DNA of 50,595 nt, taken from NCBI RefSeq assembly GCF_008520305.1, contig NZ_ML703302.1, positions 1 to 50,595 of the forward strand, written 5' to 3'. This DNA comes from Mesorhizobium sp. SARCC-RB16n. Lineage in GTDB: Bacteria; Pseudomonadota; Alphaproteobacteria; Rhizobiales; Rhizobiaceae. A model generated the notes under the pieces. It saw only the letters and a program-made list of their open reading frames with translations, was not told the DNA's origin and did no database searches. A program made the translations under genes and the position numbers. How positions within the stretch are numbered: position 1 is the first letter of the stretch; the number at the start of each line of letters is the position of its first letter. Shown piece after piece: positions 1 to 6,991 of this stretch.

Positions 1-1478
1 GAGCCAGTCGCTCCGGTCGAGCCGGTTGCTCCGGTAGAGCCGGTGGCACCGGTCGAACCCGTTGCCCCGGTCGAACCCGTTGCCCCGGTCGAGCCAGTCG
101 CACCGGTAGAGCCGGTTGCACCCGTTGAGCCGGTCGCACCAGTCGAGCCAGTCGCACCGGTCGAACCCGTTGCCCCGGTCGAACCCGTTGCCCCGGTCGA
201 ACCAGTGGCACCAGTCGAGCCGGTCGCTCCGGTCGAGCCGGTCGCTCCGGTCGAGCCAGTGGCGCCTGTCGAACCCGTTGCCCCGGTCGAGCCGGTCGCT
301 CCGGTCGAACCAGTTGCACCTGTCGAACCAGTTGCACCTGTCGAGCCGGTTGCTCCGGTAGAGCCAGTCGCTCCAGTCGAGCCAGTCGCACCGGTCGAAC
401 CCGTTGCACCGGTCGAACCAGTGGCACCAGTCGAGCCGGTCGCTCCGGTAGAGCCGGTTGCACCAGTCGAGCCGGTTGCCCCGGTCGAACCCGTTGCCCC
501 GGTCGAGCCAGTCGCACCGGTAGAGCCGGTCGCTCCGGTCGAGCCGGTCGCTCCGGTCGAGCCAGTCGCGCCGGTGGCCCCGGTCGAGCCGGTCGAGCCA
601 GTGGCGCCGGTCCCACCTGTCGAGCCGGTTGCCCCGGTCGAGCCAGTGGCACCGGTCGAGCCTGTGGCCCCGGTATCGCCAGTCGAGCCTGTGGCACCGG
701 TCGAGCCCGTCGCACCGGTAGAACCGGTATCACCCGTGGCGCCAGTCGAGCCGGTTGCTCCGGTCGAACCCGTGGCTCCGGTATCGCCGGTCGCCCCGGT
801 CGAGCCGGTTGCACCGGTCGCGCCTGTGGCCCCGGTTCCGCCGGTCGCACCTGTACTGCCGGTCGCACCGGTGGCGCCAGACGCGCCTGTCGCGCCGCTA
901 GCACCTGTCGCTCCAGTTCCGCCCGTAGCGCCTGTTGCACCTGTGGCGCCGGTACTGCCGGTCGCGCCGCTAGCACCCGTGGCGCCGGTTGCGCCAGACG
1001 CACCCGTGGAGCCAGTTGCTCCTGTCGAGCCTGTGGCCCCGGTTCCGCCGGTCGCACCTGTACTGCCGGTCGCACCGGTGGCGCCAGACGCGCCCGTCGC
1101 GCCGCTAGCACCTGTCGCTCCAGTTCCGCCCGTGGCGCCGGTCGCTCCGGTTGCGCCCGTTGCTCCAGTCGAGCCGGTAGCACCAGTCGGGCCGCTTGCG
1201 CCAGACGCACCTGTCGCGCCGCTAGCACCGGTAGCGCCTGTCGCTCCAGTTCCGCCCGTAGCGCCTGTGGCGCCGGTACTGCCGGTCGAGCCGCTAGCAC
1301 CCGTGGCGCCGGTCGCTCCGGTTGCGCCAGTCGAGCCGGTAGCACCAGTCGCGCCAGTCGAGCCGGTAGCACCAGTCGCGCCAGTCGAGCCGGTAGCACC
1401 AGTCGCACCTGTTGCTCCCGTGGAACCGGCGCCCGTGGCGCCCGTGGGGCCCGTGGGCCCGGTCGGACCCGCTGCACC
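1..1478. repeat. 9/18-bp tandem repeat encoding Gly-X-Thr triplets
   Basis: Units of the form GAGCCGGTCGCTCCGGTC recur with degenerate third bases for about 1.48 kb and continue past the left edge. On the minus strand each 9 bp encodes one Gly-X-Thr triplet. Sequence variation is higher at 830-1480 (Pro, Gly and Ser substitutions) than at 1-600, where units are almost identical, which suggests recent expansion at the distal end of the rod. It is coding repeat DNA, not a CRISPR array: there are no unique spacers. Confidence 0.95.
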
Positions 1479-4190: not shown

Positions 4191-6991
4191 GCACCATCGG
4201 CCTATGCATGATCGTCAAGAACGAGGCGAAGGTCATTCTGCAATGCCTCGCTAGCGTGCTCCCCCTTGTAGATTATGTGCTCGTCGTCGACACAGGTTCC
4301 GAGGATGGTACGCAAGAAATTATCCGCAGCTTCCTCGCCGCTCACAATGTCAAGGGCGTAGTCATCGACGAGCCGTGGCGGGACTTCGCATACAACCGTA
4401 CATTCGCCCTTGATCGGTTGCGTGAAGTCGAGACGGTCGACTATGCAATGATCATCGATGCGGACGATGTCCTAATCTTGGACCCCAGCTTCGATCCGAA
4501 CACTTTCAAGTCGCAGATGGAACACGATCTATATGACGTCGAGGTGTCTCACGGCGGCATTTCGTTTTATCGCCCGCAGATGTGTCGCAACCGACTGCCC
4601 TTCTCCTTCAAGGGTGTGCTGCACGAATATCTCGAGGCTCCTACCGGGCCCATTACTCGTCAGACTGCCAAGGGTTTCAAGATAGCGACGGGGCGTGGCG
4701 GAGCGCGCAGTCAAAATCCACGGAAATACCAGGACGATGCGGCAGTTTTGGAGAATGTCCTCCGAACCGAAACCGATCCGTTCCTGATTTCGCGGTACAC
4801 ATTTTATTTGGCGCAGAGCTATAGAGACTGCGGTGAACGTGAAAAAGCGCTGGAGCACTATCTGAAGCGTGCCGACCAAGGATTTTGGAACGAGGAGGTC
4901 TATGTAAGCCTGCTGGAGGCGGGTAACCTGATGGCGACCCTGGACAGGCCATTCGAAGACATCATCGGCATATATGAGCGTGCAACCCAGACTGTACCTT
5001 CCCGAGCGGAGGCTCTGCATGCGGCGAGCCTTTACTGCCGCAAGCAGGGCCGAAACGCAGAGGGCCGTGAGCATGCGCGTCGCGGCTTGAGTCTCGATGT
5101 GCCTGCGGGCCTTTTCGTTCAGCCCTGGGTCTACGACTATGGGCTTCTCGATGAGTTTTCAATCAACGCCTACTGGTCAGGCGCATACCGGGAATCACTC
5201 GATGCCTGCCTGAAATTACTGGCCAGCGACAAGTTGCCACCAGACATGCTGAAGCGAGTGGTGGCCAACGCGCGCTTTGCCGCCGACAAGCTGCAGGTCA
5301 GCGAGCCACCGAATTTAGGAAAGCTTGGCGCCGAGGGCTTGGTTGAGCAGCACAAGCTCATCCCGCAGCGTTCGTTGCGATCGCGCATGAAGGGCACGCC
5401 TCGCGTGCTGGTAACGATCCTGGCAAAGCAGAAAGAGCCGGCACTCCCCCTTTACCTCGAGTGCATCGAGGCGCTCGACTACCCGAAGGGGTCGATCGTC
5501 CTTTACATCAGGACAAACAACAACACCGACAGGACCGAGCACATACTCCGCGAATGGGTGGAGCGTGTACGCCACCTCTACGCGGCGGTTGAGTTCGATG
5601 CCTCGGACGTGGCTGATCGGGTCGAGCAGTTTCGCGAACACGAATGGAACGAGACGCGCTTCAAGGTACTCGGCCGAATTCGCAACATCAGCCTGGGGAA
5701 GACCCTTGAGCACAATTGCGACTTCTATTTCGTCGCCGACGTCGACAATTTCGTGCGACCGGCCACGCTACGGGAGCTTGTCGCGCTCGACCTGCCGATC
5801 GTCGCGCCGCTGCTACGCTCCATCTCGCCCGGCCAATATTATTCGAACTACCACGCAGAGGTCGATGCCAAGGGCTATTACATGCAATGCGACCAATATG
5901 GGTGGGTGCTCAACCGGCATGTGCGCGGCGTCATCGAGATGCCGCTCGTGCACTGCACCTATCTCGTGCGCGCCGACGTGCTAACGGAACTGACATATGA
6001 TGACGGTACGTCAAGGTATGAGTATGTCATCTTTGCCGACAGCGCCAGGAAGGCCCGCATCGTCCAGTACATGGACAACCGGCAGGTCTACGGCTACATC
6101 ACCTTCGGCGACGGCCAATACCATGTGAGTGACGGGATCGAGCGCGCCCGAACGCTGTTGCACGGTGCGGGCGATACCTCCGTATCCACTGGCGTCACGC
6201 TCCCGGGCTTCCTACCGATGCCGGATCGACCTGTCGAGCCGAAGGATTCGCCGAAAATACACCTGATAAACCTCGACCGCAGCGTCGAGCGCTGGAGCAG
6301 CTATCAAAGCAACAACTGGCATCTGATGCACAATACGGTTCGCGTATCGGCCGTTGACGGCACTTCTCTCGACAGGGGGGCGCTCATCAAGGAAGGGCTG
6401 ATTACCAGTGATTGTCCGTACCCCCCGGGCACGCTGGGATGCGCTCTATCGCATATCAACTTGTGGAAGCTGTCGGCTTCAGAGAACAAGGCGATAACCA
6501 TTTTTGAAGACGATGTTCGATCATCGTTTCGATTCATGGAGGAATCCGCCGATATTTTATCTCAAGCGCCCGCGGATTGGGACTTGATACAGTGGGGGTA
6601 TATATTCGACCCATTGTTTCTCTGGTTAGATTTCGGGTTCTCCAAAGCAAAACTGGAATTTTACGACTGTCGGCATAAGAATAAACCTGCCCTGTTTCAA
6701 GCAGAGAGATTCTCGCGCTCGCTCGTCAGGGTAGAGCACTCATTTGGAATCCAGGCCTACACAGTCACGCCAAGAGGCGCACGAATACTTCTGGAAAAAT
6801 GTCTGCCGCTACGAAGCAGACAGGTCCCATTTCCTGGAACTGCCGTCATCCTCGATGACACGGGTATCGATTGCGCGATGTGCGCGGCGTATGGCTCAAT
6901 GCAAGCTTTCCTTTGCATGCCACCACTCGTCATTCACGATAATGAACCGCCGTCAGACCGGACCGACGCAGATCACAGAGAGCCGAGCTAG
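4187..6991 (+). CDS. tripartite glycosyltransferase: GT2-TPR fused to procollagen-galactosyltransferase-like GT25 unit
   Basis: A 934-residue protein with GAGGGA five bases before ATG. Residues 1-230 are a GT2 domain (GLCMIVKNEAK; VDTGSEDGTQE; metal-binding DADD at 91-94). Residues about 195-345 look like TPR helices. Residues 405-650 resemble the N-terminal domain of animal COLGALT/GLT25D as I recall it: ILAKQKEPALPLYLECIEAL, REWVERVRHLY and a DVDN metal motif at 518-521. Residues 688-920 are GT25: IHLINLDRSVERW, GCALSH at 751-756, IFEDDV at 772-777. The last two domains keep COLGALT order and spacing, so this is a COLGALT-like unit with an extra GT2 in front. No signal peptide is present, so it acts in the cytoplasm. 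It probably glycosylates a protein or builds a short glycan; the collagen-like protein encoded 1.9 kb away is the obvious candidate acceptor (inference). Activity on Thr/Ser rather than hydroxylysine would be required. Confidence 0.85.
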   Translation: MSTIGLCMIVKNEAKVILQCLASVLPLVDYVLVVDTGSEDGTQEIIRSFLAAHNVKGVVIDEPWRDFAYNRTFALDRLREVETVDYAMIIDADDVLILDPSFDPNTFKSQMEHDLYDVEVSHGGISFYRPQMCRNRLPFSFKGVLHEYLEAPTGPITRQTAKGFKIATGRGGARSQNPRKYQDDAAVLENVLRTETDPFLISRYTFYLAQSYRDCGEREKALEHYLKRADQGFWNEEVYVSLLEAGNLMATLDRPFEDIIGIYERATQTVPSRAEALHAASLYCRKQGRNAEGREHARRGLSLDVPAGLFVQPWVYDYGLLDEFSINAYWSGAYRESLDACLKLLASDKLPPDMLKRVVANARFAADKLQVSEPPNLGKLGAEGLVEQHKLIPQRSLRSRMKGTPRVLVTILAKQKEPALPLYLECIEALDYPKGSIVLYIRTNNNTDRTEHILREWVERVRHLYAAVEFDASDVADRVEQFREHEWNETRFKVLGRIRNISLGKTLEHNCDFYFVADVDNFVRPATLRELVALDLPIVAPLLRSISPGQYYSNYHAEVDAKGYYMQCDQYGWVLNRHVRGVIEMPLVHCTYLVRADVLTELTYDDGTSRYEYVIFADSARKARIVQYMDNRQVYGYITFGDGQYHVSDGIERARTLLHGAGDTSVSTGVTLPGFLPMPDRPVEPKDSPKIHLINLDRSVERWSSYQSNNWHLMHNTVRVSAVDGTSLDRGALIKEGLITSDCPYPPGTLGCALSHINLWKLSASENKAITIFEDDVRSSFRFMEESADILSQAPADWDLIQWGYIFDPLFLWLDFGFSKAKLEFYDCRHKNKPALFQAERFSRSLVRVEHSFGIQAYTVTPRGARILLEKCLPLRSRQVPFPGTAVILDDTGIDCAMCAAYGSMQAFLCMPPLVIHDNEPPSDRTDADHREPS

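Follow-up and report, generated by a model that had tools for sequence, protein, structure and literature searches.

A Gly-X-Thr collagen-like protein encoded beside a COLGALT-like glycosyltransferase in Mesorhizobium: a candidate locus for collagen O-glycosylation and export

Results and discussion

The collagen-like protein and the divergent glycosyltransferase

The stretch of DNA analysed here (the window) comprises 50,595 nucleotides of Mesorhizobium sp. SARCC-RB16n (contig NZ_ML703302.1, positions 1 to 50,595). At its left edge lie two divergent genes, one encoding a collagen-like protein with Gly-X-Thr triplets and the other a glycosyltransferase of 934 aa. The collagen-like gene (1..2321, minus strand) is incomplete, with its C-terminal end left of the window, and its ATG at 2321 was placed from the annotated start of an orthologue (locus L010). 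The corresponding minus-strand frame (3-2348, 782 aa) is open at the left window edge, and its Pfam matches are Collagen (E 3e-65) and DUF4347 (E 6e-39), the latter domain occupying 1812..2303 on the minus strand (PF14252, E 5.6e-39). The repeat (6..1427, minus strand; residues 308-781) consists of 158 uninterrupted Gly-X-Y triplets in which Y is Thr 148 times and Ser 10 times, and X is Ala (94), Ser (54), Gly (6), Asp (3) or Pro (1); it holds no Lys and this single Pro. Such a run is, in our judgement, far beyond chance. A preliminary description of the window, made from the sequence alone, had reported the Gly-X-Thr array with a count of about 164 triplets, which is slightly high, as 152 are found from residue 286 on.

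The order DUF4347-collagen is kept in relatives. Over 73 Thr-rich domains with 20 triplets or more (from loci L001-L013, L015, L018, L019, L021 and L059-L105), Thr makes up 12,954 of 13,574 Y residues and Lys only 12. Runs with less than 40% Thr at Y were excluded from this count and from the plasmid count given below, and runs with less than 50% from the count of 52 Mesorhizobium loci; runs of fewer than 20 triplets were excluded here, and of fewer than 8 in the other two counts.

The divergent gene (4187..6991, plus strand) encodes three transferase domains. A GT2 module with tetratricopeptide repeats (GT2-TPR; aa 1-380, 4187..5326) carries a DADD motif at aa 91-94, and is followed by a domain resembling the N-terminal part of COLGALT, here called COLA (aa 385-660, 5339..6166; DVDN at aa 518-521), and by a GT25 domain (aa 690-872, 6254..6802; FEDDV at aa 773-777). 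The Pfam matches are GT2 (PF00535/PF13704), Anp1 at 390-541 and GT25 at 690-872, with no hydroxylase domain among them. Pfam matches to the tetratricopeptide repeats are weak and below the curated cut-offs; designed TPR proteins match at E 9e-7. The enzyme is 89% identical to one from M. erdmanii. No obvious signal peptide was seen by eye at the start of either the enzyme or the collagen-like protein.

Residues 385-934 match human COLGALT1 over both of its domains (phmmer E about 1e-40, profile E 6e-51), COLA being the counterpart of GalT-N and GT25 that of GalT-C, in the same order. The two COLGALT-like domains in animal order, DVDN before FEDDV, had been recognised in the preliminary description, which was right to see a genuine COLGALT-family bidomain but overlooked the N-terminal GT2-TPR module. 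A profile of COLA matched only three proteins in the PDB below E 0.1, namely COLGALT1, the accessory domain of LH3/PLOD3 (E 3e-21) and mimivirus R699 (E 1e-8). The nearest solved relative of the GT2 module is Listeria GmaR (E 9e-10), and its build is like that of SgtA from Clostridioides difficile.

The putative metal-binding motifs are conserved to different degrees. The DxD of COLA is kept in 12/12 domains and the DADD of GT2 in 12/12 relatives, while the EDD core, FEDDV in the window, is kept in all 23 aligned rows. At the first DXD (human 166-168), DVDN is present in 17/17 full-length rows, aligned with human DADN. At the second (human 461-463) the window has DWD; in the full-length rows the second Asp is kept 17/17 and the first 8/17. 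The RMQV stretch that follows the second DXD in the human enzyme is absent, and the window has YIFDPL after DWDLIQWG. Both DXD motifs and RMQV matter in human COLGALT1, according to the parts of the study available to us (PMC3244457), whereas a later structural account, likewise seen in part, attributes catalysis to the C-terminal EDD and describes the N-terminal domain as dormant (PMC13382579).

Since the repeat lacks Lys, hydroxylysine cannot be the acceptor, and the parallel to animal COLGALT chemistry drawn in the preliminary description does not apply. The missing RMQV and the single reliable Asp of the second DXD are what would be expected if the acceptor is not hydroxylysine. As neither RMQV nor a Lys acceptor is present, the enzyme is, judged by its motifs, a COLGALT homologue and not a strict procollagen galactosyltransferase. 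Its acceptor is likely Thr, or a sugar on Thr.

Further observations concern these two genes. DUF4347 (1812-2303) has AHG and SCE motifs, which we take to be reminiscent of clan CD (caspase-like) peptidases; a PDB sequence search with the domain gave no convincing solved relative. If it is such a peptidase, it may cleave itself. On the strand opposite the collagen repeat (window 1-1527, plus strand) runs a 508-codon open frame with PVAPVE repeats, which is probably a by-product of the repeat codons, not a gene. Draft contigs often stop within the Gly-X-Thr array (L003, L004, L006, L070-L072, L080, L087 and L096-L098), and the window too begins within one, so such collagens are easily lost from draft genomes. 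At three loci the enzyme frame is broken and the adjacent collagen frame open (L005 10219-13042, L067 8146-10257 and L068 8045-10858). A Methylobacterium collagen (L012 8787-11612) has Thr at 113 and Gln at 104 of 225 Y positions, with a Hint domain behind it.

Co-occurrence within Mesorhizobium

The enzyme family was found in 52 of 146 Mesorhizobium genomes (E 1e-15 or better). One locus was examined per enzyme-bearing genome, and L100, a second, GT25-only match in one genome, was dropped. At 50 of the 52 loci a gene for a Gly-X-Thr collagen is found 1.0-2.0 kb from that of the enzyme, in divergent orientation (median 1.4 kb, measured between stop-to-stop frames); at the remaining two the contig ends where the collagen would be. 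Beside the collagen there is usually a small gene, in the window at 2408..2722 on the minus strand, encoding about 104 aa (start inferred) with weak similarity, about 25-32%, to the region after DUF4347 in collagen proteins of this family. It is present in 47 of 52 enzyme-bearing genomes versus 0 of 94 enzyme-less ones (Fisher p 5e-33, shared descent ignored).

Matches to Pfam Collagen as such occur in 51/52 enzyme-bearing versus 34/94 enzyme-less genomes. The enzyme-less collagens were read in seven of these 34 genomes, those with coordinates among the best-E matches listed. In these seven, Pro, Lys, Arg, Gln, Ala or Asp fill most Y positions, and Thr is a minority.

Exchange of the second enzyme

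The 52 loci differ in what accompanies the GT2-TPR module. Fifteen encode GT2-TPR, COLA and GT25 as in the window (type B), 12 of them intact over the full length. Five encode GT2-TPR with GT4 (type C), and one GT2-TPR alone (type F). At the remaining 31 (types D/E) the enzyme is GT2-TPR-like and about 1,300 aa long (699 aa in one case), and at five of these a separate GT4-GT25 fusion accompanies it; the long enzyme was checked in one member, where it has a GT32-type domain and an end resembling a sugar O-methyltransferase. The typing rests on BLAST and length, with Pfam applied to 1/31 D-type, 3/5 C-type and 2/5 E-type enzymes and, for type B, to that of the window. The flanks stay mostly constant across types: the collagen lies to one side, in most cases together with the small gene, and at 49/52 loci a gene for a conserved HELGH-motif protein lies to the other. 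On a tree of this HELGH protein the architectures require 13 changes versus a minimum of four, on few well supported branches, which suggests that enzymes have been exchanged between loci.

A stand-alone GT2-TPR enzyme lies beside the collagen at loci L006 (375 aa) and L007 (372 aa) and in Cupriavidus, which fits a role as initiator. GT2-TPR is the commonest partner of Gly-X-Thr collagens, and the COLGALT-like half is one of several swappable modules.

Distribution beyond the genus

An order-level sample of 397 genomes contained COLA at 57-71% identity in eight genomes besides the one on which the sample was centred, at nine loci. Eight of the nine encode GT2-TPR-COLA frames of 671-700 aa without GT25 (type A; one cut by a contig end), and the ninth a frame of 1,053 aa. 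A Thr-containing collagen is present at seven of them, with Thr at more than half of Y in five and under half in L152 (56/152) and L155 (26/53). Locus L153 has no Thr-containing collagen, and L151 ends at a contig edge. None of ten distant GT25-only loci from the same search (28-33% identity) has a Gly-X-Thr collagen nearby. Three closer GT25-only matches (G223, 64%; G814, 41%; G1176:C25, 39%) do sit in Gly-X-Thr collagen loci and were left out of this control. One Rhizobiales genome has a second collagen locus (L159 9876-19901), with genes for a DUF4347-Gly-X-Thr protein, for secretion and for a separate GT25 enzyme (39%).

Among plasmids, 28 of 31 matching records have a GT2-type match, and a Gly-X-Thr collagen lies within 4 kb at 19 of the 23 GT2-bearing loci read. 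This count omits five of the 28 records, all from Enterobacterales; a sixth of that group was read and was negative. Three GT25-only records, one of which was read, stand outside the 23. The plasmid loci with collagen come from two phyla (Mesorhizobium, Methylobacterium, Cupriavidus, Priestia, Peribacillus and Paenibacillus). Of the six Priestia plasmids compared, three have a neighbouring second enzyme with a COLA-like stretch at 25-26% BLAST identity, which is weak in Pfam and against COLGALT1.

Co-occurrence in other genomes, whose absence the preliminary description had named as grounds for abandoning its view, is thus found in Mesorhizobium, in other Rhizobiales and on plasmids. Mesorhizobium relatives share descent and are not independent of one another, and the controls are small (ten distant GT25 loci, seven enzyme-less genomes). 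The strength of the association comes from its repetition across genera with different gene orders, together with the GT25 and enzyme-less controls.

The GT2-TPR half was found in one of 385 genomes in a class-level search, namely the genome on which the sample was centred, the COLGALT half in 2 of 297 in a family-level search, and a phylum-level search matched 5 of 398 genomes, none of them a new one with COLA. The few matches in these evenly drawn samples indicate that the system is sparse, and the samples say little on its range. Phages gave only weak GT25 matches (five records), and in viral contigs the matches, at 12 loci, are confined to the GT25 half. A collagen-like protein with Gln, Lys and Thr as Y residues is encoded on two viral contigs (L139 1-4926 and L141 1-8495), together with a protein of 808 aa, part of which resembles GT25. 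On other plasmids, relatives of GT2-TPR lie directly behind an autotransporter (Citrobacter, L014 6918-11194) and a YadA-type adhesin (Acinetobacter, L017 205-2709), and the GT2-TPR family seems to serve other surface adhesins too.

Secretion genes in relatives

An ABC transporter gene follows the end of the collagen in 17 of the 28 Mesorhizobium loci that show that end, and also in L007 and L010. Where the stretch is long enough it is accompanied by HlyD and Sel1 genes, annotated in M. ciceri R30. Several of the other 11 loci have a second DUF4347-collagen gene at that place, or the stretch ends. ABC, HlyD and Sel1 genes are also present at five of the nine other Rhizobiales loci, in a different gene order and at 42-53% identity to those of M. 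ciceri. The genes of a type 1 ABC transporter and membrane fusion protein are thus seen beside the collagen in relatives, and in the SARCC-RB16n contig they would fall outside the window. An enzyme in the cytoplasm goes well with a type 1 system, as the chain would have to receive its sugars before it is exported and folds into the triple helix. Modification of chains before trimerisation is the rule in animals, as stated in the accessible part of a review (PMC8968730).

Proposed mechanism and alternative explanations

The observation behind the preliminary description is confirmed, and its interpretation as collagen O-glycosylation is partly supported by the comparisons above. We propose, with a probability of roughly 70%, that the locus serves O-glycosylation and export of the collagen-like protein, with GT2-TPR initiating on Thr, the fused module extending the glycan and a type 1 system exporting the product. 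The DUF4347-Gly-X-Thr protein would be made and glycosylated in the cytoplasm, ahead of triple-helix formation. GT2-TPR would attach the first sugar to Thr in the Y position, in the way that SgtA places GlcNAc on BclA3 of C. difficile, and the COLGALT-like bidomain would lengthen the glycan by at least one more sugar. It could then be completed by the optional methyltransferases and by other transferases. After export by the ABC and HlyD proteins, with the Sel1 protein, the chain would trimerise outside the cell into a sugar-bearing surface fibre, which probably serves in adhesion or biofilm formation. GT2-TPR is the natural candidate for the initiator because of its SgtA-like build, its occurrence alone beside collagens and its conserved DADD. 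Substrate, linkage, order of transfer, sugars, export route and function are in this scheme predictions from sequence.

The roles of the two halves could be reversed or merged, with the COLGALT-like bidomain placing the first sugar, for example galactose, on Thr, and GT2-TPR extending it or acting elsewhere. COLGALT1 itself initiates on collagen chains, according to the portions seen of two reports (PMC3244457, PMC13382579), and in eight of the nine other Rhizobiales enzymes COLA is, by length and BLAST, the sole second transferase domain beside the collagens. Such an arrangement is nevertheless unlikely, as GT2-TPR accompanies Gly-X-Thr collagens without any COLGALT-like part in Cupriavidus, in Peribacillus and at loci L006 and L007, and SgtA, which has the same build, initiates on Thr (PMC7157674, available in part). 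COLA could instead be a non-catalytic scaffold that binds unfolded collagen chains, leaving GT2-TPR and perhaps GT25 as the active domains. The accessible text of PMC13382579 describes GalT-N and the accessory domain of LH3 as lacking catalytic activity; mutation of the same motif in human COLGALT1 abolishes activity in that of PMC3244457. The DxD conserved in every COLA domain compared and the GT4 or GT32-type domains that occupy the same position at other loci also make a scaffold improbable.

An enzyme that makes a polysaccharide or lipid-linked glycan might merely share a surface-structure island with the collagen. Lipopolysaccharide and capsule loci often encode GT25, GT4 and GT32 domains, one relative of GT2 (L020) is part of a sugar cluster, the optional sugar-modifying genes differ among loci, and a separate polysaccharide-like cluster lies about 30 kb off in the window. 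Against this, the pairing with collagen persists across genera despite shuffled gene order, it follows Thr-rich collagens and not the other collagens read, and the distant GT25 genes have no collagen nearby. No polysaccharide polymerase or exporter was found among the eight proteins scanned in the first 12 kb of the window. Taken together, these points make an unrelated glycan very unlikely.

Within the proposed O-glycosylation scheme, it is possible, if speculative, that the preference for Thr at Y in many bacterial collagens is a glycosylation code read by GT2-TPR, and that COLA of these Rhizobiales enzymes is a working collagen-glycan transferase, a living counterpart of the COLGALT1/LH3 domain said to be silenced in animals. 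If so, the animal and bacterial collagen-modifying enzymes would descend from a common ancestor already active on collagen-like chains.

Relation to known systems

Bacterial collagens that carry sugars are already known, as is an initiating enzyme encoded next to one. SgtA of C. difficile, a 358-aa protein of GT-A and TPR parts encoded beside bclA3, transfers O-GlcNAc to triplet Thr in vitro, and no enzyme that extends this sugar was found for SgtA-BclA3 (PMC7157674). The Mesorhizobium locus is similar in having a GT2-TPR module (aa 1-380) beside a Thr-triplet collagen-like protein, a likeness of domain build judged from the architecture described for SgtA. SgtA is a single glycosyltransferase acting on a spore collagen; the present enzyme has a second transferase fused to it, its collagen partner contains DUF4347, and type 1 genes are found in relatives. 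Among the open-licence literature matches listed, judged by titles and the beginnings of abstracts, none was on a Mesorhizobium collagen-like protein or on a bacterial COLGALT beside a collagen, nor was a fusion of the bidomain with an SgtA-like part, second-enzyme exchange, type 1 genes or an enzyme-linked Thr preference seen there.

The enzyme shares with animal COLGALT1/GLT25D1 both domains and their order (E about 1e-40 to 1e-50), and EDD and the first DXD are kept. It differs in the Lys-free repeat, the missing RMQV, the half-conserved second DXD, the GT2-TPR fusion and the bacterial cytoplasm. COLA likewise resembles the LH3/PLOD3 accessory domain and mimivirus R699, unlike which no hydroxylase domain is present here. 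GT2 is akin to Listeria GmaR, a flagellin O-GlcNAc transferase and also a regulator, whose substrate differs from collagen. In Riftia, galactosyl-Thr stabilises collagen.

Thr-rich collagen-like surface proteins are known also from Gram-positive bacteria, unlike the present host. Bacillus BclA is glycosylated (PMC8968730), and the Gly-X-Thr proteins (Clps) of the root-colonising Bacillus FZB42 are needed for biofilm formation and root adhesion (PMC4319854, PMC13001227), as far as the available portions of these papers go. By analogy, biofilm formation or root adhesion is the likeliest use of the collagen here too. Thr makes up 31.6% of Y over all bacterial collagens in the part seen of a review, which invokes hydration networks (PMC8968730).

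Bacterial collagens often place Thr where animals use hydroxyproline. Here the Thr-rich collagens have their own transferases and the other collagens read lack them, so that the idea of a sugar code can be tested directly. The locus supplies candidate enzymes for extending a Thr-linked sugar, the piece missing for C. difficile, as well as bacterial forms of a domain that takes part in human collagen modification and about whose catalytic role there is dispute. It could allow recombinant collagens to be glycosylated with no need for enzymes from animals, and it hints that legume symbionts make a surface fibre.

Other genes in the window

Downstream of the glycosyltransferase, on the plus strand, lie genes for a class I SAM methyltransferase (MT1; 7025..7636), a fusion of a GT1-like domain and a methyltransferase (7713..9149) and a hexapeptide acetyltransferase (9502..10083). 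The preliminary description had assigned such enzymes to decoration of the sugar. Those of the window are not a constant part of the locus, as MT1 is found at 7/52 and the GT1-methyltransferase fusion at 3/52 loci; other loci do have other methyltransferases. The acetyltransferase was rejected as a core part and is probably not one, being present at 2/52 loci and resembling CatB/Vat (nearest in NCBIfam, below cut-offs).

The HELGH-motif protein (10156..11127, plus strand), with a homologue for example at L001 16087-17094, is found also at five of the nine other Rhizobiales loci. Pfam and NCBIfam contain no family that it matches, and searches of the PDB gave nothing convincing. It has what we take to be a HELGH motif and a twin-arginine-like start, and is possibly an exported metallopeptidase that processes the collagen. 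Farther along, at 35062-47576, an RTX-repeat protein is followed by a GT4 enzyme, an asparagine synthase and an AAA_31 protein, which looks like a separate exopolysaccharide cluster.

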